Assembly: GCF_001445655.1 (NCBI RefSeq)
Contig: NZ_LNBE01000003.1
Location: 1,470,530-1,534,529 of the forward strand
Reading direction: 5' to 3'
Origin: Streptomyces roseifaciens
GTDB lineage: Bacteria; Actinomycetota; Actinomycetes; Streptomycetales; Streptomycetaceae
Length of the DNA: 64,000 nt
Shown here: positions 1,646-43,034 of the stretch, piece after piece
How positions within the stretch are numbered: the stretch's first letter is position 1
How the letters are laid out: each line of letters starts with the position of its first letter
Made by a program: the position numbers and the translations under genes
The notes under the pieces: model-generated
Seen by the model: only the letters and a program-made list of their open reading frames with translations
Databases searched by the model: none
What the model was told of the DNA's origin: nothing

Positions 1646-2470
1646 TCAGATACGGGTGTGGTCGCGTACCTGCAGCCCGTACCGGCCGGCGATCGGCGCC
1701 CACCTCCGCAGGAACTCCTGCTTGGCCTGCGTCGCGAGGCCGCTGCTCGCCACCCCGCGGTCGTACGCGGAGCCGTGGGGAACGCTGCCGGAGGAGCAGC
1801 CCGCGGCGTCCTGCGCCCACCGGGCGAACGCGCGGTCGGCCTCCGCCGAGCGCCGCCAGGCGGTCCGCAGCTCCTCCGCTGCGGCGCGGCCGCCCTCGAT
1901 GTCCTGCACGGCGATACGCGACAGGTCCTCGATCAGCCCGTCGCGCCGGACGGCGGCCGCGTCCAGATCGGCCCCGGCCGCTGCGACGGCCGCACCGGAG
2001 GCACACGATTCGACGGCGTTCACGGCGTCGGTGACCTTCTCGCGGTCCGCCGCGCTCTTCGTCAGCAGCGCGTCCAGGGCCGCGGCCTGGGACCGTCCCG
2101 AGGCGGGCGGTTCCGGTGCGGGCGAGGAGGTCTGCGGCCCCTCGGGCTGTGCCGCACCCCGCGTCGCGCTCTGCGCTGCCAATGAGGCCGACGGGCCGCC
2201 GGGCGACGGCTCGGCGCCGGCCTCGGAGCCCGAGAAGAAGACCTTGACCACGACCAGGGTGACGACCGCCGAGGTCACCGCCCCGACCGCCGCCAGCAGC
2301 ACGAATCTTCGGGACGCGGACGACCCGCGGTCACCCGGCGGCGCAGGACCGCCGCCGTCCGCCGTGCCCCCGGCCCGTGCGGAACCCCTGGACGCCGGTA
2401 CCCAACCGCCTGCGCCCCGGCGAGCCTCGCTGTCCCAGCGCATCGGTGCGCCGTCGTCGTCCTCGGCCAT
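1646..2470 (-). CDS. Single-span membrane protein of unknown function
   Basis: 274 residues starting MAEDDDGAPMRWDSEARRG. The first 50 residues are polar and Gly/Pro-rich. One membrane segment lies at about residues 55-78 (FVLLAAVGAVTSAVVTLVVVKV), followed by a Ser/Pro/Ala-rich linker and an alpha-helical extracytoplasmic part containing three Cys residues. The layout is an N-in, C-out anchored protein. No enzyme motif is visible and the function is unknown. It sits 96 bases after the signal peptidase gene and has its own promoter-like sequence, so it may or may not belong to the peptide cassette upstream. Confidence 0.75.
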   Translation of the reverse strand: MAEDDDGAPMRWDSEARRGAGGWVPASRGSARAGGTADGGGPAPPGDRGSSASRRFVLLAAVGAVTSAVVTLVVVKVFFSGSEAGAEPSPGGPSASLAAQSATRGAAQPEGPQTSSPAPEPPASGRSQAAALDALLTKSAADREKVTDAVNAVESCASGAAVAAAGADLDAAAVRRDGLIEDLSRIAVQDIEGGRAAAEELRTAWRRSAEADRAFARWAQDAAGCSSGSVPHGSAYDRGVASSGLATQAKQEFLRRWAPIAGRYGLQVRDHTRI

Positions 2471-2490
2471 ACCGTTCCCCCGTCGCTCTT

Positions 2491-2524
2491 CCGCACTGTC
2501 GTGCGGTTGGCGAACACTGTCAAC
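2491..2524 (-). promoter_or_regulatory. Promoter-like sequence with palindrome upstream of the 2470 gene
   Basis: Read on the minus strand, a TTGACA hexamer (2524-2519) is followed 17 bases later by GACAGT at a -10-like position. This overlaps a perfect inverted repeat CCGCAC-GACA-GTGCGG (2506-2491). The arrangement fits a promoter with an overlapping operator for the gene starting at 2470. It is inferred from sequence pattern only. Confidence 0.35.
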
Positions 2525-2566
2525 TCCCGGGGCAATCCGGCAGACCGGCCTCCTGTTGTCGTCCCG

Positions 2567-3058
2567 TCACCGCCGGCGCAGCACCGTTCCCAGGACGCGC
2601 TCCAGCGGGAAGTAGCCGACCTCCCGCGAATCGAAGCTCACCCTGCCGTTGTCGCCGAGGAGGACCACCTGGCCGGGCGGTACGCGCTCCTCGGGCGCCG
2701 TGGCCAGGGCGGGGACGCAGTCGAGCGGGACGAGGTCGCCGGGGAGCGCGGCCACGCGTTTGATCAGCCAGTCGCGGCCGTGGACGCCGGCCGCGCCCGC
2801 CTCGGCGCGCACCGGCGGCCGGGGCCACATGCCGCCGCTCGCGGGCCGCTCGGCCACCACGACCTGTCCCACGGCCGGCCGCGGGCCGCGCCGGACCAGG
2901 ACGCGGTCGCCGTCCCGGAAGGCCGGCGCCATGCTCGTGCCGCGGACGGTGACCACGACCAGGCCGCGCGCCAGGCACACGGCCGCACCCAGCGCCGCGC
3001 CCGCCGCGACCGCAGCCGCGCCGCGCAGCCGCCGCCGCAGCGCGGACCCGGCCGTCAC
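2567..3058 (-). CDS. S26-family signal peptidase-like protein
   Basis: 163 residues, GTG start at 3058 inside a GTGA overlap with the end of the ABC exporter gene, so translation is probably coupled. An N-terminal hydrophobic segment (about residues 13-38) is followed by the S26 serine motif GTSMAP (Ser42). The general-base lysine lies in WLIKRVAALPGD (Lys100), and the late box GDN...SFDSREVG is present. Both members of the Ser/Lys dyad are therefore there. It is short compared with housekeeping SipW/LepB enzymes and lacks a C-terminal anchor. Its place as last gene of the Cys-rich peptide operon suggests it trims that peptide's leader outside the membrane or during export. The family call is firm; the substrate is inferred. 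Confidence 0.85.
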   Translation of the reverse strand: MTAGSALRRRLRGAAAVAAGAALGAAVCLARGLVVVTVRGTSMAPAFRDGDRVLVRRGPRPAVGQVVVAERPASGGMWPRPPVRAEAGAAGVHGRDWLIKRVAALPGDLVPLDCVPALATAPEERVPPGQVVLLGDNGRVSFDSREVGYFPLERVLGTVLRRR

Positions 3059-5094
3059 CGGGGCTCCCCGGTGAACGCGGGCTCGCTCCCGGCGTCGGTG
3101 TCCGTGCCGGCCTGGTAGCCGGCCGCTTGGAGGGTGAAGAGGCGCGCGTAGCGGCCGCCGGAGCCGATCAGCTCGGCGTGCGGGCCCTGTTCCACGACGC
3201 GTCCGTCCTCCAGGACGGCGATGACGTCGGCGTCGCGCACCGCGCCCAGGCGGTGGGAGATGAGGAGGCTGGTCCGCTCGCCGCGGTGGCGCCGCAGCGC
3301 GGTGTGGATCTCGTGCTCCGCCTCGGCGTCGAGCCCCGCCGACGGCTCGTCGAGGATCATCAGGTCGCGCTGGTCCCGCAGGAACGCGCGGGCGAGCGCG
3401 AGCCGCTGCCGCTGGCCGCCGGAGAGGACCACACCGGTCTCCGGGTTGTCCTTGTCGGACTCCATGAAGAACCTCCGCGACAGCAGCGTGTCGTACCCGT
3501 ACGGCAGACCGGCGAGCTTGGCGTGGATGCCCGCGCGCTCCGCGGCCGCCTCGATCCGCGGGCGGTCGCCGAGCGCCGCGAGGTCGCCGAGGGCGATGTT
3601 CTCCGCCGCCGTCATGTCGTAGTGCATGTAGTCCTGGAACACCGCGCCGATGCGCCGCCGCAGCTCAGCCACGTCGACCGTACGGATGTCCACGCCGTCC
3701 CACAGGATCGCGCCGCGCTCGGGATCGTAGAACCGGCACAGCAGCTTCACCAGCGTGGACTTGCCGGCGCCGTTGAGCCCGACGAGCGCCAGCACCTCGC
3801 CCCGGCGCAGGTGCAGGCTGGCGCCGCGCAGCACCCACGGGTGCTCCTCGGAGTACCGGAACCACACGTCGCGCAGCTCGATGCCGCGGCCCAGCGGCGG
3901 CAGCGCGGCCGGCTGCAGGGGCACGGGCAGGTCCGGCCCGGCGCCCGCGACCACGAGGTAGTGGTCGAACATCAGCAAGGCCTGGTGCGAGCGGGCCACT
4001 TCGCTCGCCAGGGTGGCCAGCGCGCCCTGGATGCCGGCCACCGCCGCCACGAACATGACGACGTCGCCGGCCGACAGGGTGCCGGCGTGCGCGGCGCCCA
4101 CCGCCCACAGCAGTCCGCCGCCGGAGACGAGCGCGGCCAGCAGCCCGAGCCCGGACTGGACGACGGCCTCCCGCCGGTCCACCGCGCGCTTGGCGGCGTC
4201 GGCCGTACGCCGGTCGGCCAGCATCCGGCCCCGCAGGAACGCGCCGGTGCCGAAGAGCCGTATCTCCTTGGCCGCTTCGACGCTCGACAGCAGCTCGCTG
4301 TAGAACATCTGCCGGCGCTCGACCGGGCCGACGTCCCACAGCGTGCGCGCCTTGCGCCGCGCCATGGCGACCTCGGAAACCAGCGTGGGCACCGCGGCGA
4401 CCAGCACCAGGGCGGTCATCCACGGGCTCAGCAGGGAGAGCGAGCCGAGGAACCCGCCGATGGTGAGGGCGCTGCGGGCGATGCCGACGGCTCCGTCGAC
4501 GGCCTGGTTGGGCATGCCGCCGCCGGAGCTCTGCGCGAGCCGCAGCCGGTCCAGGAAGCGCGGGTCCTCGAAGCGCCCCAGGCCGGCGAAGCCCTCCACG
4601 GCCCTGAACAGCCGGTCGTCGGCGAGCAGCCCGACCCTGCGGTCGAGTTCGCGCCGCAGGTACTGGCTGATCTGGGGTACGACCGCGATGACGGTCCCGG
4701 CCGCGGCGAGCCCTGCGCCCAGGCCCACCAGCGTGCCGAGGGAGGCGCCCGAACCCAGCCCGTCGAGCATCAGCTTGGTCAGCCAGGCGGTGACCACGGG
4801 GAGGGCGCCGGCCATCAGCGTCAGCACCAGGTAGCACGCGAGGGCCGCGGGAGCCGCGCTCGCCACCAGCGCGGTGGCCGCGGCGATCCGCCGGGTGGTG
4901 GCCAGGAGGCCGCCGGAGGGTGCGGGCGGGAGGCCGGCGGCGTCGGCAGGGCCGGAGGCCGGCCCGGGGCCCGGGCCGGCCGGTGCCCCGGGGGAGGATG
5001 CGGGGCCCGGTCCAGGGCCCGGGCCGGGACCCGGTGCGGGACCCGGGCCCGGGCCGGGGGCCGCCTGCCGCCGGCCGTGGTCCTGCCCGTTCAT
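3055..5094 (-). CDS. ABC exporter (fused membrane and ATPase domains) of the Cys-rich peptide cassette
   Basis: 679 residues, ATG at 5094 overlapping the redoxin stop (ATGA). The first 60 residues are almost pure Pro/Gly/Ala repeats. Membrane segments lie at about residues 70-350 and the ATPase domain at about 400-640. Walker A is GLNGAGKST, the signature LSGGQRQRLALARAF and Walker B LMILDEPSAGLD, with the switch His in LLISHRLGAVRDAD, so the site looks catalytically complete. There is no C39 peptidase domain at the N-terminus, which is consistent with a separate S26 peptidase in the next gene. The membrane half resembles exporters found in actinobacterial RiPP clusters. Likely role: export of the matured Cys-rich peptide as a homodimer. 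Confidence 0.9.
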   Translation of the reverse strand: MNGQDHGRRQAAPGPGPGPAPGPGPGPGPGPASSPGAPAGPGPGPASGPADAAGLPPAPSGGLLATTRRIAAATALVASAAPAALACYLVLTLMAGALPVVTAWLTKLMLDGLGSGASLGTLVGLGAGLAAAGTVIAVVPQISQYLRRELDRRVGLLADDRLFRAVEGFAGLGRFEDPRFLDRLRLAQSSGGGMPNQAVDGAVGIARSALTIGGFLGSLSLLSPWMTALVLVAAVPTLVSEVAMARRKARTLWDVGPVERRQMFYSELLSSVEAAKEIRLFGTGAFLRGRMLADRRTADAAKRAVDRREAVVQSGLGLLAALVSGGGLLWAVGAAHAGTLSAGDVVMFVAAVAGIQGALATLASEVARSHQALLMFDHYLVVAGAGPDLPVPLQPAALPPLGRGIELRDVWFRYSEEHPWVLRGASLHLRRGEVLALVGLNGAGKSTLVKLLCRFYDPERGAILWDGVDIRTVDVAELRRRIGAVFQDYMHYDMTAAENIALGDLAALGDRPRIEAAAERAGIHAKLAGLPYGYDTLLSRRFFMESDKDNPETGVVLSGGQRQRLALARAFLRDQRDLMILDEPSAGLDAEAEHEIHTALRRHRGERTSLLISHRLGAVRDADVIAVLEDGRVVEQGPHAELIGSGGRYARLFTLQAAGYQAGTDTDAGSEPAFTGEPR
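4945..5070. repeat. Pro-Gly coding low-complexity tract
   Basis: Tandem GGGCCCGG-like units encode an irregular (Pro-Gly/Ala)n tail at the N-terminus of the ABC exporter. Such tracts are prone to slippage and the true length, or even the start codon, may vary between strains. Confidence 0.8.
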
Positions 5095-5645
5095 GCGGCT
5101 ACGACGGGGGAATCCAGGTTCACGTTGTTGCGCGCGATCACGGGCCTGCCGGCGCCGTCCGAGGCGACCTCGAGCAGCGTCGGGAACCCCATGATCTGGA
5201 AGGCGTCGGTCATGACGGGCTCGCTGCCCTGCACCACGACGCGGGCGACCGGGCTCAGCTCGGCGACCTGCCCCTTGGCGCGCTCGGGCGTGCCGACCAC
5301 CACGGCCAGCACCTGCTTCCGGCCGCCGGGCAGCGTCCGCGCGTACTCAGCGAACTTCGGCAGCATCTCGTGGCACGGGCCGCAGCTGGGGGAGAAGAAC
5401 GCCACCAGGGTGTCGCCCGACAGCGACTCGCGGGTCAGCACCTCGCCGTCGACGGCGACGGCCTGGAACTCGCCCACCTCTTCGCCGACCTTGATGACGG
5501 GCGGTCTGCCGGGCGCGTTGCCGTCGGCCATCTTGGACAGCATCGCGGTGTGGTCCCGCAGCCGCTTGATCACCCCCAGGGTGAGGATCAGGTCCAGCGT
5601 ACAGAGCAGTCCCACCAGGACCACCGCCGCGATCAGGACGGGCAT
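5091..5645 (-). CDS. Membrane-tethered thioredoxin-like protein (TlpA/MauD-like)
   Basis: 184 residues starting at the ATG at 5645, with a good ribosome site (GAGGAG) nine bases upstream. A single N-terminal membrane segment (residues 2-25) anchors a redoxin domain. The active site is FFSPSCGPC with Cys88 and Cys91, followed by the thioredoxin-fold cis-Pro region (IMGFPTLLEV). The gene follows mauE-like by 20 bases and overlaps the exporter start. In methylamine-utilisation loci MauE and MauD act together to form disulfides in a Cys-rich subunit. By analogy this protein should oxidise or isomerise disulfides in the ten-cysteine peptide of the same operon. The fold call is sure; the direction of the redox reaction is inferred. 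Confidence 0.88.
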   Translation of the reverse strand: MPVLIAAVVLVGLLCTLDLILTLGVIKRLRDHTAMLSKMADGNAPGRPPVIKVGEEVGEFQAVAVDGEVLTRESLSGDTLVAFFSPSCGPCHEMLPKFAEYARTLPGGRKQVLAVVVGTPERAKGQVAELSPVARVVVQGSEPVMTDAFQIMGFPTLLEVASDGAGRPVIARNNVNLDSPVVAA

Positions 5646-5665
5646 GGAAGTCGTCTCCTCTGGGA

Positions 5666-6307
5666 TCACTTGGAGTCGGTCCGGAGCCGGTTCGGAGCCG
5701 GCCGGGAGCCGGTTCGGAGCCGGTTCGGAGCCGGTTGGGAGTCGGCCGGAACCACCGGCCGCGGGGCGAGGCCCGGGGCCTCGCCGATGGGCCGGAACAG
5801 ATCGAGGATGTCGTCGAGCGCGGCGACCAGCCCGCCCAGGAGCAGACCGCCGAGCACCGCCACAGTGGCGCCGCCCGGGGTGGTCGCCCCGGACACGGCG
5901 ACGGCCGCCGCGCCGGTGACCGCCGCGGCCGTGAGGGCGAGGTTGCGCACGATGTGTCTCGGCCCCAGCGGGCTCGCCGAGGCGCCGAAACACCGGCAGG
6001 GCGTGCGCACTCCCCGCCGTACGGAGACCGCGATGGCGGCCGTGAAGACCGCCAGCAGCCCCGCTGCGATCACCAGTCCCGCCACCGTGGCGGCCGTCAC
6101 CGGCACGGCGAGGCTCACGCACACCGCGCACTCGGCGGCCACCACGGCCCGGGCCACCGACCGGGCCCGGTGTGAGGGCATGATCCGCATGCCCTCCACC
6201 GAGACCACGAAGCGGTCGAACGCTCTTCGCCCCGTTGACTTGCCGAGGGACGAGGCGAAGAAGACCACGCCGATCAGACAGTGGATGCCGATCGCCAGAT
6301 AGCCCAC
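5666..6307 (-). CDS. MauE/DoxX-like redox membrane protein
   Basis: 213 residues from a GTG at 6307 preceded by GGAGGAGG. A longer upstream frame exists but has no leader-like character. Four hydrophobic segments are visible, with two cysteine pairs: ECAVC (Cys60/Cys63) at a membrane edge and the family-typical PCRCFG (Cys104/Cys106), followed by LGPRHIVRNLAL. This pattern matches MauE, a membrane protein thought to pass electrons from a periplasmic redoxin to the quinone pool. The last 25 residues come from a tandem repeat (PAPNRLRTGSR units). It is encoded between the Cys-rich peptide and its thioredoxin-like partner, which supports a role in oxidative folding of that peptide. Confidence 0.85.
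   Translation of the reverse strand: MGYLAIGIHCLIGVVFFASSLGKSTGRRAFDRFVVSVEGMRIMPSHRARSVARAVVAAECAVCVSLAVPVTAATVAGLVIAAGLLAVFTAAIAVSVRRGVRTPCRCFGASASPLGPRHIVRNLALTAAAVTGAAAVAVSGATTPGGATVAVLGGLLLGGLVAALDDILDLFRPIGEAPGLAPRPVVPADSQPAPNRLRTGSRPAPNRLRTDSK
5671..5745. repeat. Tandem GGAGCCGGTTC repeat in the mauE-like 3' end
   Basis: Five to six imperfect copies of an 11-12 base unit (plus-strand GGAGCCGGTTC) lie at the extreme 3' end of the MauE-like gene. They encode a repetitive Arg/Pro-rich tail. Confidence 0.85.
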
Positions 6308-6451
6308 CTGGTTTTCCTCCTCCGGCTGTCGTCGTGGCGTTCCCGGTCGGGGCGGTTCGTCATCGCCGGCCGGGACTTTCATCCGGTCGGCAGGAGGGTG
6401 CTGTTCTCAGCGCCGTTCTCACTGCTGTTCCCGGTGCTGTGTTCGCGATCG

Positions 6452-6649
6452 TCAGCACTGACAGACGATCGTCGGACAGCCGTTGGAGTTGCAGCAGGCC
6501 CAGCAGGGTGCGTTGTAGCCGCACTTGCCGCTGCACTGCCAGCAGGCCGGGTAGTTGCGGCAGGCCAGGAGCTCGGCCGCCGCGGCATCGATCTCGGGCA
6601 CGAACTTCCCGAGCAGGCGACTGCCCAGCTCGGTGAGCTTTGCGTACAT
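6452..6649 (-). CDS. Cys-rich small peptide, probable secreted disulfide-rich precursor
   Basis: 65 residues. The ATG at 6649 is preceded by AGGAG with seven-base spacing; a GTG at 6664 is in frame but would bury that ribosome site. Residues 1-29 (MYAKLTELGSRLLGKFVPEI, then an Asp-Ala4-Glu stretch) form an amphipathic, Cys-free leader. Residues 30-65 hold ten cysteines with spacing C-x5-C-x2-C-x3-C-x5-C-x2-C-C-x4-C-x4-C-x-C, including two CWxC motifs, and end in Cys. There is no classical Sec signal. It heads an operon with MauE-like and redoxin proteins, an exporter and a signal peptidase, so I infer a precursor whose C-terminal half is oxidised into several disulfides and exported. It matches no bacteriocin or metallothionein class that I can name. 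A metal-binding peptide is the main alternative. Confidence 0.8.
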   Translation of the reverse strand: MYAKLTELGSRLLGKFVPEIDAAAAELLACRNYPACWQCSGKCGYNAPCWACCNSNGCPTIVCQC

Positions 6650-7553
6650 CGACACACTCCTCACGTGATCAGAACTTGACCGGATGTGACCCGGGCTTGA
6701 TCGGATCGGGTGTGAACCGGGTTGGGGCCCGGTGCTTACGCCGGTTGAGTCTCATCGCGCCGTGGCGGGGCGGATAGTGCAGTTTCCGCCGAGTGGACGC
6801 ACCGGCCGGGACGGCCGGGCCGATCTCCGGGTGGCCCGAAGCGGCTCTTGCGGAGCGCGGGAGTTGTGGTTCCGGTGCGCGGGACCGCGGAGCGGGGCGA
6901 GCAGCCGGGCCCGGTGCACCCCTGCCCGGACCGGCACATTCCTCCGCCGGGGCTGAATCCGGGCCTCCGTGTGGACCGGGAGTGCGCGCACTGGCCAGCG
7001 TCGGTGCGCGCCGTGCATCTCCGCCACCGGCGGGCGGCGGCCGGGGAAGTGGAAGAGGCGCGTTCCGGCCGACGGTTGCGCACCGGCGCACAAGGGGCCG
7101 AGGAGGTGGTTCCGCTTCCCGGCGGGGCGTGGTAGGCCCGGCGCCCAGGCTTCGTTCAGGACTTCGTTGCAGCCCTCGCGCCGGGTGCGAAGGCGCCGCT
7201 GCGGACGGCATGTCGACGTCCGGCCCCTGTTCCTCGTAGTCCGTGCGGACGCACGTGCCGTTGTCATGTCCGGGTGCGGCGGTGTTCGTGCCGGGAATCG
7301 GGTTCCTGCCGGGCGGGCGCGACCGGGGCGCGGCGGGCCGGACGGCCTCCGGCTCCGGCGTCCGCAGCGGCGGTGACGTCGCGTTCTGCCCGGCGGCGCG
7401 GGAAGGCGGGCGGGCGGTCGTACCGAGGCCGGTTCTGTCCGGCCGGTCGCGTGGGCCGTGCCCGGGGCGCATCCGTGGGGTGGTGCTCCCGCGCCGGGTG
7501 AGCGGAACGCGAACGCATGTGTGAAGTGGCCTGCGTGGGGTACGTGTTCGCTC
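6650..7553. other. Long gene-free region between divergent units
   Basis: About 900 bases separate the Cys-rich peptide gene (minus) and the secreted protein gene (plus). Open frames exist on both strands but read as Arg/Pro/Gly shadows of high G+C sequence with no ribosome sites or family resemblance. Just upstream of the peptide gene, 6675-6725 holds two imperfect direct repeats (TGTGACCCGGG and TGTGAACCGGG, 26 bases apart, each near a TTGAYCGGAT), possible operator sites for the peptide operon. Nothing else was recognised. Confidence 0.5.
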
Positions 7554-8452: not shown

Positions 8453-8471
8453 TTAGGTTAGCCTAAGCTAA
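8453..8471 (+). promoter_or_regulatory. Iron box (DmdR/IdeR-type) upstream of argC
   Basis: TTAGGTTAGCCTAAGCTAA matches 17 of 19 positions of the palindromic iron box found perfect at 13067. A -35-like TTGCCC lies at 8439-8444, placing the box over the -10 region. The distance to argC is 168 bases. Expected effect: repression of the arginine genes when Fe(II)-regulator is abundant. Confidence 0.8.
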
Positions 8472-8621: not shown

Positions 8622-9756
<1,135 letters not shown>

Positions 9757-9760
<4 letters not shown>

Positions 9761-10908
9761 GCGTCACCGCAGCGAAGGGATTCGCGGCCGCGGGCATCGC
9801 CGCCGGGATCAAGGAGAGCGGCAGCCCCGACCTGGCCCTGGTCGTCAACCGCGGCCCGCGCCTGACCGCCGCCGGCGTCTTCACCGCCAACCGCGTCAAG
9901 GCCGCGCCCGTGGTGTGGTCGCAGCAGGTCCTGGAAGGCGGCCGGGTCTCGGCCGTGGTCCTCAACTCCGGCGGCGCCAACGCCTGCACGGGACCGGACG
10001 GCTTCCGGGACACCCGCGCCACCGCCGAGAAGGCGGCCGAGGCGCTGGGGCACAGTGCGGGAGAGATCGCCGTGGCGTCCACGGGACTGATCGGCGTGAG
10101 GCTGCCGATGGACCGGCTGCTGCCGGGCATCGGCATAGCGGTCGGCGAACTCTCGGAGCTCGGTGGTGAGAAGGCCGCCATCGCCATCAAGACCACGGAC
10201 ACCGTGCACAAGACGGCCGTGGTCCAGGGCGAGGGCTGGACCGTGGGCGGCATGGCCAAGGGTGCGGGCATGCTCGCCCCGGGCCTGGCGACCATGCTGG
10301 TGGTCCTGACCACCGATGCTGACGTCGACGCCGCCGGTCTCGACGCCGCTCTGCGCGCCGCGACCCGGAAGACCTTCGACCGGGTCGACTCCGACGGGTG
10401 CATGTCCACCAACGACACGGTGCTGCTGCTCGCCTCGGGCGCCGCCGAAGTGACCCCCGCCCAGGACGTGTTCGCCGAGGCCGTCCGGGCCGTCTGCGAC
10501 GACCTGGCCCGTCAGCTGATCGGTGACGCCGAGGGCGCCAGCAAGGACATCCGCATCGAGGTGATCAATGCTGCCACCGAGGACGACGCGGTCGAGGTCG
10601 GGCGCTCCATCGCCCGGAACAACCTCCTCAAGTGCGCCCTCCACGGCGAGGACCCCAACTGGGGCCGGGTGCTCTCGGCGATCGGTACGACGTCCGCCGC
10701 CTTCGACCCGGACAAGCTCAACGTGGCCATCAACGACGTCTGGGTCTGCCGGAACGGCTCCGTCGGCGACGACCGCGACCTCGTCGACATGCGCTACCGG
10801 GAGGTGCGCATCACCGCGGACCTGGCCGAGGGCGGCGAGTCCGCCGTCATCTGGGCCAACGACCTCACCGCCGACTACGTCCACGAGAACAGCGCGTACT
10901 CCTCATGA
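9757..10908 (+). CDS. argJ: Bifunctional ornithine acetyltransferase / N-acetylglutamate synthase
   Basis: 383 residues from the GTG at 9757 ([18 protein letters not shown]), ribosome site GAGGA seven bases upstream. The self-cleavage site is the conserved Ala-Thr in [14 protein letters not shown]; Thr179 becomes the N-terminal nucleophile of the beta subunit. ArgJ moves the acetyl group from N-acetylornithine to glutamate, releasing ornithine, so the pathway can recycle acetyl groups. Some family members also use acetyl-CoA, and the sequence alone does not settle which form this is. It overlaps argB by ATGA, giving a tightly coupled argCJBD unit that delivers ornithine next to ornithine N5-monooxygenase and hydroxyornithine-loading NRPS modules. 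Confidence 0.97.
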
Positions 10909-11840
10909 ACAACAAAGCCCGTACCGTCATCGAAGCCCTGCCCTGGCTCCGGCGCTTCCACGGCAAGACCGTCGTCGTCAAGTTCGGCGGCAACGCCATG
11001 GTCGACGAGGAGCTGAAGGCCGCCTTCGCCCAGGACGTCGTCTCGCTGCGCTACGCGGGGCTGCGCCCCGTGGTGGTGCACGGCGGCGGTCCGCAGATCA
11101 GTGCGCAGCTGGACCGGCTGGGCCTGGAGTCGGAGTTCAAGGCCGGCCTGAGGGTGACCACGCCGGAGGCCATGGAGGTCGTCCGCATGGTGCTCGCCGG
11201 GCAGGTGCAGCGCGAACTCGTCGGCCTGATCAACCGTCACGGACCCTTCGCCGTAGGCATGACGGGCGAGGACGCCCACACGATGACGGCCACCAAGCGC
11301 TACGCCGACGTCGACGGCGAACGCGTCGACATCGGGCTCGTCGGCGACATCGTCGCGGTGGAGCCGGAGACGCTGGAGGCGCTCCTGGCCTGCGGCCGCA
11401 TCCCCGTCGTCTCGCCCGTCGCGCGCGGCGCGGACGGCGAGATCTACAACATCAACGCCGACCTGGCCGCGGCCGCCCTCGCGGAGGCCCTGGGCGCCGA
11501 GAAGCTGATCGTCCTCACCGACGTCGAGGGCCTCTACGCGGACTGGCCCCGCAGCACGGACGTCATCCGCAGTCTGACGGCCGGTGAGCTGGAGGCCCTG
11601 CTGCCGCGCCTGGCCAGCGGGATGGTGCCCAAGATGGAGGGCTGCCTGCGGGCGGTGCGCGCCGGGGTGCGCACGGCACACGTCCTGGACGGGCGGGTCC
11701 CGCACTCCCTGCTGCTGGAGGTCTTCACGGGCGAGGGCGTCGGCACGGCCGTCGTCCCCGATCCACCACCGCCTGCAGCGGCCCTCGTCGCAGGGCCTGC
11801 CGGCCCCGCCGGTGCCGTCCGGGAGAGGGTTTCCGCATGA
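10905..11840 (+). CDS. argB: Acetylglutamate kinase
   Basis: 311 residues, ATG in an ATGA overlap with argJ. Amino-acid-kinase fold motifs are clear: [54 protein letters not shown] and the C-terminal GGM-like SGMVPKMEG. The enzyme phosphorylates N-acetylglutamate. The N-terminus begins [20 protein letters not shown], like arginine-sensitive hexameric kinases, but whether feedback inhibition is retained cannot be read from the sequence. A feedback-relaxed copy would make sense for siderophore supply. The last 30 residues are an Ala/Pro/Gly tail longer than usual. It overlaps argD by four bases. Confidence 0.96.
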
Positions 11841-13033
11841 GCGGGCGACAGGCCCCGGCCCCGGGGCGGAGCGGCGCCGCACTGGCGGGCCGGTGGAAGG
11901 GCGCGCTGATGGACACGTACGGCACGCCTCCGCTGGCGCTGGTGCGCGGCCGGGGCGTGACCGTCGAGGACGCGGACGGCCGCACGTACCTCGACTTCAT
12001 CGGCGGCATCGCCGTCAACGCACTGGGCCACGGGCACCCGGCGGTGGTGGAGGCGGTCGGCCGGCAGCTCGCCCTCCTCGGCCACGTGTCCAACCTGTAC
12101 GTGGCCGAGCCGCCCGTACGGCTGGCCGAGCGGCTGCTGGAACTGGCCGGCCGCGAGGGGCGGGTGTTCTTCTCCAACTCGGGGGCGGAGGCCGTCGAGG
12201 CCGCGTTCAAGATCGCGCGGCGGACGGGGCGCACCCACATGGTCACCGCCGTCGGCGGCTTCCACGGCCGCACGATGGGGGCCCTGGCGCTCACGGGCCA
12301 ACCCGCCAAGCAGGAACCCTTCCTGCCGCTGCCCGGCGAGGTGAGTCACGTCCCGTACGGGGACGTGGCGGCGCTGCGGGCCGCGGTGAGCGAGCGGACC
12401 GCGGCGGTGGTCCTGGAGCCCGTACAGGGGGAGAACGGCGTCGTGCCGGCGCCACCCGGATACCTGCGGGCCGCCCGGGAGATCACCGAGGCCGCCGGGG
12501 CGCTGCTGGTGCTGGACGAGATCCAGACGGGCATGGGGCGCACCGGGCACTGGTTCGCCCACCGGGCCGCGGAAGTCGAGCCGGACGTCGTGACCCTCGC
12601 GAAGGGGCTGGGCGGCGGGCTGCCGATCGGGGCCACCCTCGCCTTCGGGCGGGCCGCCGGACTGCTGACGCCCGGTCAGCACGGCTCCACGTTCGGCGGG
12701 AACCCGGTGACGTGCGCGGCTGCGCTCGCCGTGCTCGCCACCATCGAGGCCGACGGCCTGCTGGAGCACGTCCGGCGCGTGGGCGAGCGGCTGCGGGCCG
12801 GCATCGAGGCGACGGGCCATCCGCTGCTGCGCGAGGTGCGGGGAGCGGGTCTGCTCCTGGGCGTGGTCCTCACCGAGCCGGTGGCGGCACGTGCCCAACT
12901 CGCCGCCCAGGAGGCCGGGTTCCTGGTGAACGCGCCGGTCCCGGACGTCCTGCGGCTCGCTCCGCCGCTCATTCTCGCCGAGGAGCAGGCGGACGCCTTC
13001 GTGGCGGCACTGCCGGGGATTCTGGGCTCCTGA
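11837..13033 (+). CDS. argD: Acetylornithine aminotransferase
   Basis: 398 residues, ATG in an ATGA overlap with argB. It is a class-III PLP aminotransferase: [18 protein letters not shown], the glycine/aromatic [26 protein letters not shown], and Schiff-base Lys256 in TLAKGLGGG. It converts N-acetylglutamate semialdehyde to N-acetylornithine using glutamate. It is the last gene of the unit; unlike the common argCJBDRGH arrangement there is no argR, argG or argH behind it. The next element is the iron box of the siderophore operon 33 bases after its stop. This supports a dedicated ornithine pathway that stops before arginine. Confidence 0.96.
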
Positions 13034-13085: not shown

Positions 13086-13181
13086 GCATCAAGTTCTTGG
13101 GTTGCCCCCACCACGCCCCTGACCTGCACAGCAGGCAGGCGTCGGCCTCGTGGGAACGAGCAACACAACGAAAGGATGAGC

Positions 13182-14600
13182 ATGTCGGTACGGCGCGGGG
13201 ACACCGCACACACGGGGTGCGGCCCCATCGAGGACCTGGTCGGCATAGGCTTCGGCCCCGCCAACCTGGCCCTCGCCATCGCGATCGACGAGCACAACCG
13301 CCGTAACCCCGGCAGTGCGATCCGCGCGGGCTTCCTCGAGCGCCAGCAGCGGTTCGGCTGGCACCAGGGCATGCTCATCGAGGGCGCCACCATGCAGGTG
13401 TCCTTCCTCAAGGACCTCGTCACCATGCGGGACCCCGGCAGCCGCTTCTCCTTCCTGCACTACCTGCAGGAGCGCGGTCGGCTCGCCGACTTCATCAACC
13501 AGAAGACGTTCTTCCCCACCCGCGTCGAGTTCCACGACTACTTCGAGTGGTGCGCGGGCGAGTTCGCCTCCGCCGTCGACTACGGCCGGACGGCCGTCGC
13601 CCTGCAGCCCGTACGGAACGACGGCGTCACCGAGTCCGTGGACGTCGTCTCCCGCAGCGTGCAGGACCCGGCCGACGAGAGCGTCCGCCGCACCCGCAAC
13701 ATCGTCCTCGGCACCGGCCTCACCCCGCGCCTCCCCGAAGGCGTCTCCCTCGGCCCGCACGTCTGGCACAACCGCGACCTGCTCTTCCGCGCCGCGGAGC
13801 TCACCGGCCGGCCGCACCGCCGCTTCGTCGTCGTCGGCGCCGGCCAGTCCGCCGCCGAGAGCGCCGAATACCTCCACCGCACCTTCCCCGACGCCGAGGT
13901 CTGCGCCGTCTTCTCGCGCTACGGCTACAGCCCCGCCGACGACAGCCCCTTCGCCAACCGCATCTTCGACCCCGCCGCCGTCGACCACTTCTACGACGCC
14001 CCCGAGGACGTCAAGCAGGCGCTGCTGGACTACCACGGCAACACCAACTACTCCGTCGTCGACGGCGAGCTGATCGAACAGCTCTACCGCACCGCGTACC
14101 AGGAGAAGGTCCAGGGGCGCGAGCGGCTGCGCATCCTCAACACCAGCCGGCTCACCGCCGTCGAGGACGTCCGCGGCGGCGGAGCGCGCGCCGTGATCCG
14201 CTCGCTCGCGTCCGGCGAGGACTTCACCCTCGACTGCGACGCCGTCGTCCTCGCCACCGGCTACCGGCCCGCCGACCCGCGCGAACTCCTCGGCGAGCTC
14301 GCCGAGGAATGCCTCACCGACGAGCAGGGCCGGCTCCGCATCGACCGCGACCACCGCGTGATGACCACCGGCCGGATCCGCGCCGGCATCTACCTCCAGG
14401 GCGGCAGCACCGAGCACACGCACGGCATCACGTCGACCCTGCTGTCCACGCTCGCCGTCCGCTCCGGGGAGATCTGCGAGTCGCTGGTGCGCGGTGTCCC
14501 GGCGGGCGCCCTCGCGGGCGCCGGTGCCGGTGTCCTTGCGGACGGGGGTGCCCGGGCGGACGGGGCGTCCGCCGACGAGCTGGCGGTCCAAGTCGGCTGA
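13182..14600 (+). CDS. L-ornithine N5-monooxygenase (siderophore)
   Basis: 472 residues from the ATG at 13182, placed five bases after AAGGA; an ATG six bases earlier lacks ribosome-site spacing. It belongs to the SidA/PvdA/CchB class: FAD motif GIGFGPANLALA, substrate region GMLIEGATMQVSFLKDLVTMRDP, NADPH motif VVGAGQSAAE, and the late VVLATGY motif. It hydroxylates the side-chain amine of free ornithine with NADPH and O2, giving N5-hydroxyornithine. The gene opens the main siderophore operon behind a perfect iron box and directly follows the ornithine genes. The last 45 residues are an Ala/Gly-rich tail absent from typical homologues. Confidence 0.96.
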   Translation: MSVRRGDTAHTGCGPIEDLVGIGFGPANLALAIAIDEHNRRNPGSAIRAGFLERQQRFGWHQGMLIEGATMQVSFLKDLVTMRDPGSRFSFLHYLQERGRLADFINQKTFFPTRVEFHDYFEWCAGEFASAVDYGRTAVALQPVRNDGVTESVDVVSRSVQDPADESVRRTRNIVLGTGLTPRLPEGVSLGPHVWHNRDLLFRAAELTGRPHRRFVVVGAGQSAAESAEYLHRTFPDAEVCAVFSRYGYSPADDSPFANRIFDPAAVDHFYDAPEDVKQALLDYHGNTNYSVVDGELIEQLYRTAYQEKVQGRERLRILNTSRLTAVEDVRGGGARAVIRSLASGEDFTLDCDAVVLATGYRPADPRELLGELAEECLTDEQGRLRIDRDHRVMTTGRIRAGIYLQGGSTEHTHGITSTLLSTLAVRSGEICESLVRGVPAGALAGAGAGVLADGGARADGASADELAVQVG

Positions 14601-16311: not shown

Positions 16312-29204
<12,893 letters not shown>

Positions 29205-29208
<4 letters not shown>

Positions 29209-39316: not shown

Positions 39317-41329
39317 GTGAGCACCCAACACGCCAAGCCGGAGCACCACCCCGGCACCGCCGACGAGCCCCCGGGCCCGCCGACTGCCGAGGAGGTCCCG
39401 CCCGCCGAGGACGCCCCGGAGGAGGGCTCTCCGGAGGGCTCTCCGGAGGAGGAAGAGCAGAGCCCACGGGACCTCTCGCCCGAACGACGGCGACGGGCCC
39501 GCGCCCTGCTGCGCGGCGCCCTGCGGCCGCACTGGGCGACGGTCGGCGCGGCCATGGCCGCCGCCGGAGTCCGGCAGATCGCCTTCCTCGCGGTCCCGTG
39601 GTGCATCCAGAAGGCGCTGGACGACGGCGTCACGGCCAGGGACAATCACGCCCTGCTGGTGTGGGCCGCCGCCACCCTGTGCGCCGCGGGCATCCAGTTC
39701 GCCGGGCTCTACGGCTGGCAGTACTGGGCCGGTTCCGCCGACGCCAAGGTGGGAGCCGACCTGCGCTCCCGGCTGCTGCGGCACCTGGCCGGCCTGGACC
39801 GCGCCGCGCTCGCCTCCCGCGGCCACGGCGACCTGGCCATGCGCGCCGGCCGGGACACCGACCTGGTGCGCGAGTGGGTGCACGGCCTGGCCATCTGGGT
39901 CGTGCTGGGCACCACCTTCGTGGGCGTCCTGACCGGCATGGGCGTGCTCGACGTGTCGCTGCTGCTCGTGACGCTGGGCATGCTGCCGTTCCTGGTCTGG
40001 GTCAACCTGTACTTCCCGCGCCGCTTCGGCGCGGCCAGCGGCGCGCTGGCCGAGGCGCACGGCGTCCGCGCCGAGGCCGTCGCGGACCTGCTCCAGCTCG
40101 GCACCGGCCTGCGCGGCACGGGCGGCCACCGGCCGCTCGTGGCCCGGCACGACGCGGCCAGCGCCGCCGTCACCGACCGCACCGTCAAGGCGGCCCGGAT
40201 CGAGGCCTCCTGGGCGTCCGTCGCGCCCTTCGTGCCGCGGATGGCCGTGGCGATCGGCGTGGGCTTCGGCGGGCTCGCCGTCCTCGACGGCCGGCTGACC
40301 ATCGGCGGCCTGGTCGCCTTCACGTCCTGGATGGCCAGCATCACCCTCGCCACCCGCGTCCTGGTCGACCGGCTCCTCGCCCGCGGGCAGGCCGACGTGG
40401 CCGCCTCCCGCATCGACGAGGCGCTGTCCATCGAGGCCACCGTCACCGACCCGGCCGAGCCGGTCGCGCTCACCCCCGGCGGCGACCTGGAGCTGACCGG
40501 CGTCAGCGCGGTCCGCGACGGCGTCACCGTCCTCGCGCCGCTCGACCTGACCGTCCGCGCCGGGGAGTTCGTCGCCGTGAACGGCGCCACCGGCTCCGGC
40601 AAGAGCACCCTGCTGCGCCTGCCCGTCCGGCTCGACGACCCCGGCACGGGGGTCGTCCGCTACGGCGGCACGGACCTGCGCGAGGCCGCGCTGGACGACA
40701 TCCGCGGCCGGATCGCGTACGTCGCCCAGCGGCCGATGCTGCTGTCCGGCACGGTCGCCGAGAACCTGCGCCTCGGCCGCGACCTGCCGGACGAGGCCCT
40801 GCACGCCGCCTGCGCAACCGCCGGCATCCACGACCAGATCGCCGCGATGCCCGACGGCTACGACACCGAACTCGGCGAGAGCGGCACCGCCCTGTCGGGC
40901 GGCCAGGTCCAGCGGCTGGCCATCGCCCGCGCGCTCCTCGGCGAACCGGAGGTGCTGATCCTGGACGACTCCACGTCCGCCCTGGACACCACCACCGAGC
41001 AACTGATCCTCGACCGCCTGCACACGTGGGCCGCGGACCGCACCATCGTCTTCGCCACGCACCGCACGGCGGTCCTGGAGGCGGCGGACCGCGTCGTGAC
41101 ACTGACGGCTGCGGGCCGTGAGGGCGACCCCGCCGGTACGGTTGCCACCTCCGAGGCCGCCGCCCCCGCCGCCGGCTCTGCCGCGCCCACGGCCGCGGGC
41201 CGCGCCGGTGACACCGGCACCACAAGCAAGCGCACCGGCACCCAATCCGGTCCCGGAGGCGGCCCCGCCGCCTCCGGACCCGCACCCGCATCCGTCCCCG
41301 TCACCACCCCGGAGGGCCCCCGTGGCTGA
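39317..41329 (+). CDS. Siderophore ABC exporter half A (degenerate ATPase site)
   Basis: 670 residues from a GTG at 39317. After a Glu/Pro-rich 50-residue lead come six membrane segments (about residues 70-360), then an ATPase domain: Walker A GATGSGKST near residue 423, signature LSGGQVQRLAIARAL, Walker B VLILDDSTSALD, switch His in FATHRT. The residue after Walker B is Asp instead of the catalytic Glu. The last 75 residues are an Ala/Pro/Gly-rich tail. It overlaps the second exporter gene, which has a complementary defect, so the two should form a heterodimer exporting the finished siderophore. An IrtAB-like importer role is possible but less likely since FecCD importer genes are present. 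Confidence 0.9.
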   Translation: MSTQHAKPEHHPGTADEPPGPPTAEEVPPAEDAPEEGSPEGSPEEEEQSPRDLSPERRRRARALLRGALRPHWATVGAAMAAAGVRQIAFLAVPWCIQKALDDGVTARDNHALLVWAAATLCAAGIQFAGLYGWQYWAGSADAKVGADLRSRLLRHLAGLDRAALASRGHGDLAMRAGRDTDLVREWVHGLAIWVVLGTTFVGVLTGMGVLDVSLLLVTLGMLPFLVWVNLYFPRRFGAASGALAEAHGVRAEAVADLLQLGTGLRGTGGHRPLVARHDAASAAVTDRTVKAARIEASWASVAPFVPRMAVAIGVGFGGLAVLDGRLTIGGLVAFTSWMASITLATRVLVDRLLARGQADVAASRIDEALSIEATVTDPAEPVALTPGGDLELTGVSAVRDGVTVLAPLDLTVRAGEFVAVNGATGSGKSTLLRLPVRLDDPGTGVVRYGGTDLREAALDDIRGRIAYVAQRPMLLSGTVAENLRLGRDLPDEALHAACATAGIHDQIAAMPDGYDTELGESGTALSGGQVQRLAIARALLGEPEVLILDDSTSALDTTTEQLILDRLHTWAADRTIVFATHRTAVLEAADRVVTLTAAGREGDPAGTVATSEAAAPAAGSAAPTAAGRAGDTGTTSKRTGTQSGPGGGPAASGPAPASVPVTTPEGPRG

Positions 41330-43034
41330 GCCGGTTCTGCTCGACGAGCAGCCCGACGAGCGGCGCGTGCTGCGTCGCGCCGCCCCCTATCTGCGCCCGC
41401 ACCGGCGCGCGCTCGTCGTCGCCCTCGTGGTCGGGCTGGCCGACTCCGCCGCGCTGGTGGCCGTCGCCCCGCTGATCGGGCGCGCCACGGACGCCCTGCT
41501 CGACCGGGACCGCGGCGGGCTGCTGACCGCCGCCGTGGTCCTCGTCGTCCTCGCGGTCCTCCAGCTGGGCCTCGCCCGTGCGGGCGAGCTGCTGCTGGCG
41601 AAGGCCGGCGAGAACGTCGTGCGCAGCCTGCGCGAGAAGTGCGTGGAGAACCTGGCGTCGGCGCCGCTGCGGTTCCTGGAGTCGCACCGCACGGGCGACC
41701 TGCTGCGCCGTACGACGGGCGAGGTGGCCGCCCTGGCCTCCTTCGTGCGCATGCACCTGCGCAGGCTGGTGTCGGCGACGGCCACGCTCCTCTTCACCCT
41801 TGTCGTGCTCTTCGGCTACTCGTGGCAGCTGGCGCTGGTGCAGATCGCCGTCTTCGTGCCGCTGACGCTGCTGGTGATGCGCTGGTTCCAGCGGTCCGCG
41901 CCGCGCGCGTTCGGCGGGAAGGCGGCGGCGGAGGCGACGGTCGCGGCGACGTTCACCGAGACCCTGAACGTGCGGGAGGCGCTGCAGAGCGCCCGCGGCC
42001 TGCCGGGCTGGCTGCGCCGGTTCGACCGGGAGAACACCGCGGCCGTCGGCGCGGCCCGGCGCGCGATCCGGGTGGAGAACCGCATCGACCTGGTCGGCCT
42101 GATCGAGGGGTTCGCGCTGGTCGTGCTGCTGCTCGCCGGTGGCTGGTCCGTCTCGCGCGGCGCGATGGGCGTCGGCACCGTCGTGGTCTTCGTCCTGGCG
42201 AGCCGCAACCTCTTCGACTCCTTCTCGGACATCTCCCAGCTCGTGGGCGAGGTGCAGACGGCGCGCACGGGCCTGGCCCGGCTGCTGGACCTGCTGGCGG
42301 CCACCGACCGGGCCGCGGACGACAAGCCCCGGGAGGACGGCCCGGCCGCGGAGCTGCCCCTGCGCGGCGAACTCGCCTGCGAGGATCTCGGCTACTCCTA
42401 CCGCGACGGCACGGAGGTGCTGCGCGGCGTCTCCCTGGGCTTCCCGGTGGGCGACCGCAGCGGCGTGGTCGGCGAGACCGGCTCGGGCAAGACGACGCTG
42501 TCGAAGCTGCTGTGCGGCCTCTACGTGCCGGACCGGGGCGCGGTGCGCTTCGCCGGCGTCGACGTGCGGGAGATCCCGGAGGCGGAGCTGCGCCGCCGCG
42601 TGGTGCTGGTGCCGCAGGAAGTCCGCATGGTGACGGGCACGGTGGCGGCGAACCTGGAGCTGGTGCACAGCGCGCCGGGCCGGGCCGAGATGGAACGGGC
42701 CGTGGCCGAGCTGGGACTTCAGGAGTGGATCCGCGACCTGGGTGGTCTCGACGCCGAGGTGGGCGTGCGCGGCTCGCGCCTCTCGGCGGGGGAGCGGCAG
42801 ATCGTCGGGCTGCTGAGGGCCGCCCTGGCCGACCCGGCGGTGCTCGTCCTGGACGAGGCGACCGCCGACATCGACCCGGTGACGGCGGGCCGGCTGGAGC
42901 ACGCCCTGGACGGGATGCGCAGCGACCGCACGATCATCGTGATCGCGCACCGGCCGGCCACCATCGCCCGGCTGCCGCGGGTGATCGCGCTCGACGCAGG
43001 CCGGGTGGCGGGAACGATGGCATCTACACGATGA
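41322..43034 (+). CDS. Siderophore ABC exporter half B
   Basis: 570 residues from a GTG at 41322 with GGAGGG upstream, overlapping the end of half A. The membrane domain spans about residues 20-330. The ATPase has Walker A GETGSGKTT near residue 384, Walker B VLVLDEATADID with an intact catalytic Glu, and a switch His in IAHRPAT. The signature is LSAGERQIVG instead of LSGGQ. Paired with half A, the dimer would have one consensus site and one degenerate site, the known pattern of asymmetric heterodimeric exporters. The gene ends two bases before the third iron box. Confidence 0.92.
   Translation: MAEPVLLDEQPDERRVLRRAAPYLRPHRRALVVALVVGLADSAALVAVAPLIGRATDALLDRDRGGLLTAAVVLVVLAVLQLGLARAGELLLAKAGENVVRSLREKCVENLASAPLRFLESHRTGDLLRRTTGEVAALASFVRMHLRRLVSATATLLFTLVVLFGYSWQLALVQIAVFVPLTLLVMRWFQRSAPRAFGGKAAAEATVAATFTETLNVREALQSARGLPGWLRRFDRENTAAVGAARRAIRVENRIDLVGLIEGFALVVLLLAGGWSVSRGAMGVGTVVVFVLASRNLFDSFSDISQLVGEVQTARTGLARLLDLLAATDRAADDKPREDGPAAELPLRGELACEDLGYSYRDGTEVLRGVSLGFPVGDRSGVVGETGSGKTTLSKLLCGLYVPDRGAVRFAGVDVREIPEAELRRRVVLVPQEVRMVTGTVAANLELVHSAPGRAEMERAVAELGLQEWIRDLGGLDAEVGVRGSRLSAGERQIVGLLRAALADPAVLVLDEATADIDPVTAGRLEHALDGMRSDRTIIVIAHRPATIARLPRVIALDAGRVAGTMASTR

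Follow-up and report, generated by a model that had tools for sequence, protein, structure and literature searches.

A cassette for a cysteine-rich, leader-bearing peptide linked to a MauE/redoxin pair in Streptomyces roseifaciens and other actinobacteria

Homologues of mauE beside genes for cysteine-rich precursors have been described before in Streptomyces. With decRiPPter, Kloosterman et al. (2020, PMC7794033) listed three Streptomyces candidate families of ribosomally synthesized and post-translationally modified peptides (RiPPs) with mauE, one of them also with mauD. Each precursor of these families has at least eight cysteines, the encoded proteins were proposed to modify the precursor, and the strict filter of the method required a transporter, a peptidase and a regulator. 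In the sections of that paper drawn on here, MauE is speculated to assist disulfide formation, the function of MauD is called unclear, and the families are presented as a prediction, with no analysis of the leader, of disulfides or of an S26 site. Here we describe a cassette of five genes in a stretch of 64,000 nucleotides of Streptomyces roseifaciens (contig NZ_LNBE01000003.1; the whole stretch is called the window), which encodes a cysteine-rich peptide, a MauE-like membrane protein, a MauD-like thioredoxin-like protein (redoxin), an ATP-binding cassette (ABC) exporter and an S26-family signal peptidase. As in the decRiPPter families, mauE and a mauD homologue, in this case a distant one, accompany a precursor with at least eight cysteines, and the cassette family is likely the same as these mauE/mauD families. 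The decRiPPter text names S. viridosporus T7A, whereas we found the cassette, with a ten-cysteine peptide, in another S. viridosporus strain (L055). The initial annotation of the window could assign the peptide to no named RiPP class. Since decRiPPter had listed such candidate families in 2020 (PMC7794033), its central inference was already in print. As far as we have seen, in a literature search that we do not claim to be exhaustive and in which PMC7794033 was the one relevant paper, the system was predicted before but apparently not studied. What is new here is the breadth of the family, the leader and S26 site, the evidence from cysteine parity and pairing, the disulfide prediction and a puzzle of topology.

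In the methylamine dehydrogenase system, MauE and MauD act on the MauA precursor with its 12 cysteines. A MauA model had no match in the genome of S. roseifaciens and none above the cut-off in 396 Actinomycetota genomes, where one weaker match was seen, and the control genomes gave none either. The idea that the window peptide is a relative of MauA was rejected: there is no significant relation, and a short likeness of the leaders has an E-value of 0.14. The glycocin sublancin has a dedicated thiol-disulfide oxidoreductase, BdbB. Pediocin, an exported disulfide bacteriocin, is reported to have such an enzyme in PedC (PMC4919988). The cassette resembles both systems in that it would join a small exported disulfide peptide to its own thiol oxidoreductase and an ABC exporter. 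It differs in that a C39 domain is absent, the leader ends in AxA and is accompanied by an S26 enzyme, and MauE takes the place of a DsbA/DsbB-type pair.

We propose, with a probability of roughly 0.7, that the five genes form a self-contained line that makes, exports and trims a secreted cystine peptide with a dedicated MauE/redoxin thiol-disulfide system. The ribosome would make a 65-residue precursor, whose shared leader would direct it to the dedicated ABC exporter. The S26 peptidase of the cassette would then cut after the AxA site at residue 24, as site and peptidase together suggest, to release a core of 41 residues. The ten cysteines of this core would form five disulfides, as supported by the even number of cysteines and by their gain and loss in fixed pairs. 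MauE and redoxin would be the dedicated thiol-disulfide system, for which their linkage, their CxC and CxxC motifs and their homology to MauE and MauD speak, with oxidation as the likeliest direction.

The family is a real peptide system that is widespread in actinobacteria. The genome of S. roseifaciens (8.64 Mb, 13 contigs) has one copy of the peptide, three other matches having E-values of 0.59 or worse. A search of 295 genomes of the same genus gave 19 peptide matches in 17 genomes. For 16 of these, in 14 genomes including that of the window, mauE- and redoxin-like neighbours lie within about 3 kb, and the peptides are as little as 34% identical. The three matches with neither gene nearby (L017, L019, L020) look like chance. 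The small frame is conserved beside mauE-like genes, the point on which the initial annotation had made its idea depend. A protein search found 37 relatives, and the number of cysteines is even in every one of them. Scans of viral contigs with peptide and redoxin found no relatives.

A genome scan with a redoxin profile gave 102 loci, and the locus counts reported here cover the best 80 of these. They span Streptomyces, Embleya, Micromonospora, Nocardia, Nonomuraea, Actinomadura, Lentzea and others; a redoxin from S. hiroshimensis is 97% identical to that of the window. ABC, S26 and MauE matches occur at 78, 73 and 71 of the 80 loci. Two, three and one of them, respectively, lie on the opposite strand or at a distance of more than 4 kb and possibly have no relation to the cassette (the opposite-strand ABC matches, L082 and L089, are 34-35% identical), and dropping these leaves 76, 70 and 70. 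All four genes are found at 66 loci, 50 of which have the order mauE-redoxin-ABC-S26. At nine loci mauE follows the S26 gene (eight redoxin-ABC-S26-mauE, including all four of Lentzea, and L088), and at three it lies between the ABC and S26 genes. Thus, the position of mauE varies and the link survives rearrangement. A cysteine-rich frame with the leader was detected by the leader profile at 78 of the 80 loci, 69 times at E-values up to 0.1 and nine times more weakly, down to an E-value of 10. The remaining two are L040, which is cut by a contig end, and L095, where none was found. In a record titled Streptosporangium nondiastaticum (L025), whose species label may be wrong, peptide and redoxin are 95% and 85% identical to those of the window. 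One contig (G137:C1, about 4347469 and 4360102) carries inverted peptide-mauE-redoxin copies about 12.5 kb apart (L018, L022), with identical six-cysteine peptides and identical redoxins. A neighbouring 274-residue protein (1646-2470) was rejected as a member of the cassette, with matches at 2 of 80 loci.

The precursors have alike leaders, M-x-x-K-L-E-x-L-G-S-R-L-L-x-x-F-V-P-x-V-x-A-x-A, and hypervariable cores of 31 to 59 residues with a median net charge of +1, which contain 20.6% cysteine followed by G, A, S, N, Y and W. A ribosomal precursor with a conserved leader and a variable core, the general pattern of a RiPP, is thereby present. In the window peptide the cysteines are at positions 30, 36, 39, 43, 49, 52, 53, 58, 63 and 65. 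The peptide has no match in Pfam or NCBIfam, and 0 of 58 members of its clade match Pfam. Compared with 11 close relatives, pN/pS (nonsynonymous relative to synonymous changes) is 0.15 in the leader and 0.20 in the core, that is, changes are mostly synonymous. The conserved frame under purifying selection supports translation of the precursor. All 100 distinct precursors have proline at -7 and alanine at -3 and -1. This count is in part circular, as these positions are used by the profile of the search and by a regular-expression filter. Four Lentzea frames with V-G-A and no proline were set aside from the distinct-core set. Signal peptidase I follows the rule of alanine at -3 and -1. The hydrophobic stretch of the leader looks, in our judgement, short for a Sec signal; from this and the presence of an ABC exporter we infer that the ABC protein exports the peptide and that the S26 enzyme cuts it thereafter. 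For a cut after A24 the calculated monoisotopic mass is 4392.68 with five disulfides and 4402.76 in the reduced form. An AlphaFold model of the peptide is modest, with a predicted local distance difference test score near 80 for core blocks and near 50 for the leader, and was not used for assigning bonds.

The S26 protein of the window matches Peptidase_S26 (1.9e-19), and the GTSM and IKRV motifs, which we take to hold the catalytic serine and lysine of the family, are retained in the consensus of its relatives. The ABC protein matches ABC_tran with 103.7 bits and ABC_membrane with 23.3 bits, under the cut-off of 28. The claim of an exporter free of a C39 domain was borne out by a domain scan of this protein, and having no peptidase domain it falls outside the double-glycine/C39 bacteriocin type. 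Its N-terminus contains a PGPGPG repeat (about 4950-5062).

The even number of cysteines and their gain and loss in pairs argue for full disulfide pairing of the predicted cores. Ten cysteines, the number in the initial annotation, hold for the window peptide; across the family the number ranges from 4 to 12. The 100 distinct cores, from which frames with fewer than three cysteines were excluded, have 4 (3 cores), 6 (18), 7 (2), 8 (32), 10 (42), 11 (1) or 12 (2) cysteines, so that 97 are even. Ten frames had been filtered out of the set, three of them junk and seven plausible precursors with 8 or 6 cysteines; with these seven, 104 of 107 are even. Clusters are entirely even in 59 of 62 cases at 70% identity, 48 of 51 at 60% and 24 of 27 at 50%. 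On a tree of redoxin and ABC protein with 76 taxa, three of them odd, 2 of the 20 changes in cysteine number alter its parity (binomial test against one half, 2e-4). These numbers bear on the idea of thioether or other enzymatic crosslinks, as in lanthipeptides or sactipeptides, introduced by an unlinked enzyme. The leader/core anatomy is RiPP-like and would suit such an enzyme. However, bonds from cysteine to serine or threonine would not impose an even number of cysteines, and no known crosslinking enzyme is among the five products, where domain scans (which covered the flanking genes in part) confirmed the absence of lanthionine, lasso and radical-SAM enzymes. We consider such crosslinks extremely improbable.

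Pairing is best resolved in the clade of the window peptide, the CWQC-type cores, of which 66 are distinct and none is odd. Fifty-eight of these were aligned; eight cores of a CCVNT subgroup, each with ten cysteines, were left out as they aligned poorly by eye. Four cysteines are invariant in the 58 sequences, and the slots a-h, e-l, i-j, f-m and d0-j' occur together. The rows scored as discordant by the script for a-h, e-l and f-m (one or two each) are all P0022 or P0028, and for i-j the three such rows come from the d0-j' sequences. Over the 36 loci with this pairing pattern, the type changes 8 times on the tree. The most likely bonds predicted for the window peptide are C30-C52, C43-C65 and C53-C58, where C52 and C53 may swap, with two further bonds among C36, C39, C49 and C63. 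It could also be imagined that the cysteines bind metal, in the manner of a metallothionein or a metallophore, and that the redox pair keeps them reduced, as the cysteine content and the CxC and CC motifs would allow. Disulfides better explain the paired loss of cysteines, the fixed partner slots and the totals of mostly 4, 6, 8, 10 or 12, and metal binding is in our view very improbable.

The proposed cystine-peptide line also contains the redox pair. The MauE protein matches PF07291 with 6e-24 and 85.2 bits, over the gathering cut-off of 27. It has about five predicted transmembrane helices (by simple hydropathy on a sample) and a CxCFG motif, whose two cysteines are retained in 66 and 65 of 71 relatives. 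This motif lies between the third and fourth predicted helix, placed as in MauE of Paracoccus. The C-terminus of the window protein (5666-5745) is a repeated RTGSRPAPNRL-like tail that is missing from the aligned relatives. The redoxin matches Thioredoxin (4.2e-6) and AhpC-TSA (6.8e-6), both slightly above the cut-off, and has its CxxC in 80 of 80 relatives. A cysteine in its transmembrane helix (residue 15; 5601-5603, minus strand) is kept in 72 of 80 and absent from Paracoccus MauD. Compared with Paracoccus denitrificans (L111), MauE is 33% identical over 153 residues (E 7e-4) and the redoxin 23% identical to MauD over 106 residues including the anchor (E 1e-3), both values from a three-sequence comparison only. 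A profile comparison with hhalign gave 83% probability for redoxin and MauD over the soluble domain. By these sequence comparisons, the redoxin is a distant homologue of Paracoccus MauD, and the MauE protein one of Paracoccus MauE.

The same pair might instead act as a reductase or an isomerase and proof-read disulfides that oxygen or the general oxidation machinery has introduced. The CGPC-type motif, a weak resemblance to the models for thioredoxin, ResA and StoA and the shuffling that ten cysteines would require are in its favour, whereas a CcdA/DsbD-like electron donor was not seen among the five products and MauE is speculated in the decRiPPter text to aid disulfide formation (PMC7794033). 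We regard this as possible, if rather doubtful.

Several observations weigh against the proposal of a dedicated line for a secreted cystine peptide. It is built on sequence, namely on the genes, their conservation and linkage and the cysteine statistics, from which export, cleavage, oxidation and bioactivity are deduced. Three cores are odd (L038 and L079 with 7 cysteines, L078 with 11), and of the clusters formed at 45% identity only 14 of 16 consist of even cores throughout (p 0.002). Other frames of the loci with at least four cysteines are even in 982 of 1468 cases, with a falling tail; an even number thus prevails there as well, and a null of one half is generous. In the pairing alignment the script misplaced the cysteine slots of two of the 58 rows, P0022 and P0028, which both fit by eye, and the eight CCVNT-subgroup cores are missing from it. 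Fold and sequence searches of the PDB with the peptide gave nothing significant (best E-value 0.67 in one). The residues between the redoxin cysteines vary, so that the redox potential is not fixed, and on the MauD equivalog TIGR02661 the redoxin reaches 14.9 bits, under the NCBI cut-off of 188.6, compared with 383.7 bits for Paracoccus MauD. Finally, charge counts put both the CxC of MauE and the CxxC of the redoxin on the cytoplasmic side.

These counts suggest another arrangement, in which MauE and redoxin would face the cytoplasm and oxidise the precursor there, before its export, so that the ABC protein would carry an already folded peptide. The CxC loop of MauE is more positive than the preceding loop in 60 of 61 scorable cases (of 71), and the C-flank of the redoxin is more positive than its N-flank in 72 of 80, with equality in three. 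MauE of Paracoccus (L111, region 3909-5073) has the same cytoplasmic pattern in its CxC loop (K/R 4, D/E 1), and MauD has it weakly (K/R 2 and D/E 1 after the transmembrane helix, none before). MauA, the substrate of the Paracoccus pair, has what we read as a twin-arginine-like leader, i.e. an export leader, and the twin-arginine translocation (Tat) system exports folded proteins. However, the cytoplasm is reducing, and charge counting is simple: the same count on the S26 protein, whose domain is expected outside, agreed in only 16 of 27 cases. Due to this poor check the topology is a warning and not a result. Oxidation before export appears unlikely. The broader idea that MauE/MauD-type pairs are cytoplasm-facing machines that form disulfides before export, by Tat for the small subunit of methylamine dehydrogenase and by a dedicated ABC protein for the present family, is quite unlikely in our estimate. 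Of the MauE/MauD-like pair as first annotated, the tie to a leader-bearing cysteine-rich peptide has held; its oxidase role is a deduction, with charge counts that hint at the cytoplasm and so speak against a simple oxidase outside the membrane.

The five genes were recovered as annotated, all on the minus strand and in one direction (Table 1). The conserved part of MauE and a GGAGG-like site favour a GTG near 6307 as the probable mauE start over the longest ATG frame. The gap that separates mauE from the peptide gene measures 69 bp if mauE starts at the ATG and 144 bp if it starts at the GTG, and the ABC and S26 genes each overlap the preceding gene by 4 bp. An attenuator hairpin in the gap was rejected, none being significant in the 144 bp (z -1.09). 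A scan of 2300-7500 found no sigma-70 promoter and one terminator-like site, within the redoxin gene, where 0.7 are expected by chance.

Table 1. Features of the cassette and of its precursor peptide (positions in the window).
Feature	Position	Strand	Basis
Precursor peptide gene, 65 aa	6452-6649, ATG at 6649	-	open reading frame and relatives
MauE/DoxX-family membrane protein	5666-6307, 213 aa from GTG; longest ATG frame to 6382	-	PF07291
MauD-like, CGPC, single-transmembrane thioredoxin-like protein (redoxin)	5091-5645	-	Thioredoxin and AhpC-TSA matches
ABC exporter, transmembrane region and ATPase, no C39 peptidase	3055-5094	-	ABC_tran
S26-family signal peptidase, GTSM (Ser) and IKRV (Lys) motifs	2567-3058	-	Peptidase_S26
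Leader, residues 1-24, MYAKLTELGSRLLGKFVPEIDAAA; core, residues 25-65, ten Cys			
Predicted cut after A24, at the site A22-A23-A24 (AxA, Pro at -7)	6578-6586	-	

The surroundings of the cassettes give a hint of their role. At 16 of 80 loci the end of an AraC-like gene (one typed by Pfam) lies upstream of the precursor at a distance of less than 250 bp. SARP-like (Streptomyces antibiotic regulatory protein, BTAD) frames occur at 28 loci; some of these frames overlap other genes and may be spurious, and one was typed by Pfam. Cassettes are plasmid-borne in S. atratus, S. clavuligerus and others; that on the S. clavuligerus plasmid (L106, 3677-4169) has two tandem precursors with six cysteines each, whose cores would have masses of 4913.22 and 4797.03 Da with three disulfides apiece. 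AraC/SARP-like neighbours and plasmid location fit secondary metabolism and mobility. The product probably belongs to secondary metabolism and serves in antagonism or signalling, given that some cassettes are plasmid-borne or have such regulators as neighbours and that diversification affects the cores and spares the leader; its bioactivity is a guess.

Elsewhere in the window, argC/J/B/D-type genes, named by eye, lie at about 8625-13033 (the genome has a second argC copy, which is 85% identical), followed by an Orn/Lys N-monooxygenase (13176-14600), a nonribosomal peptide synthetase with 5 condensation and 3 AMP-binding stretches (16312-29208) and an ABC protein (41118-43034). The sequence TTAGGTTAGCCTAAGCTAA at 8453-8471 resembles the actinobacterial iron box. 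The genes suggest that 8453-43034 is a cluster for a hydroxamate siderophore that also provides the ornithine for it.

The family comprises about 100 distinct natural cores, most with 2 to 6 predicted disulfides and each with one small cassette, some of them on plasmids and one in S. clavuligerus, a laboratory species. A testable disulfide map was obtained for the window peptide from its sequence alone. The family would offer a second, much simpler substrate for working out the function of MauE and MauD.

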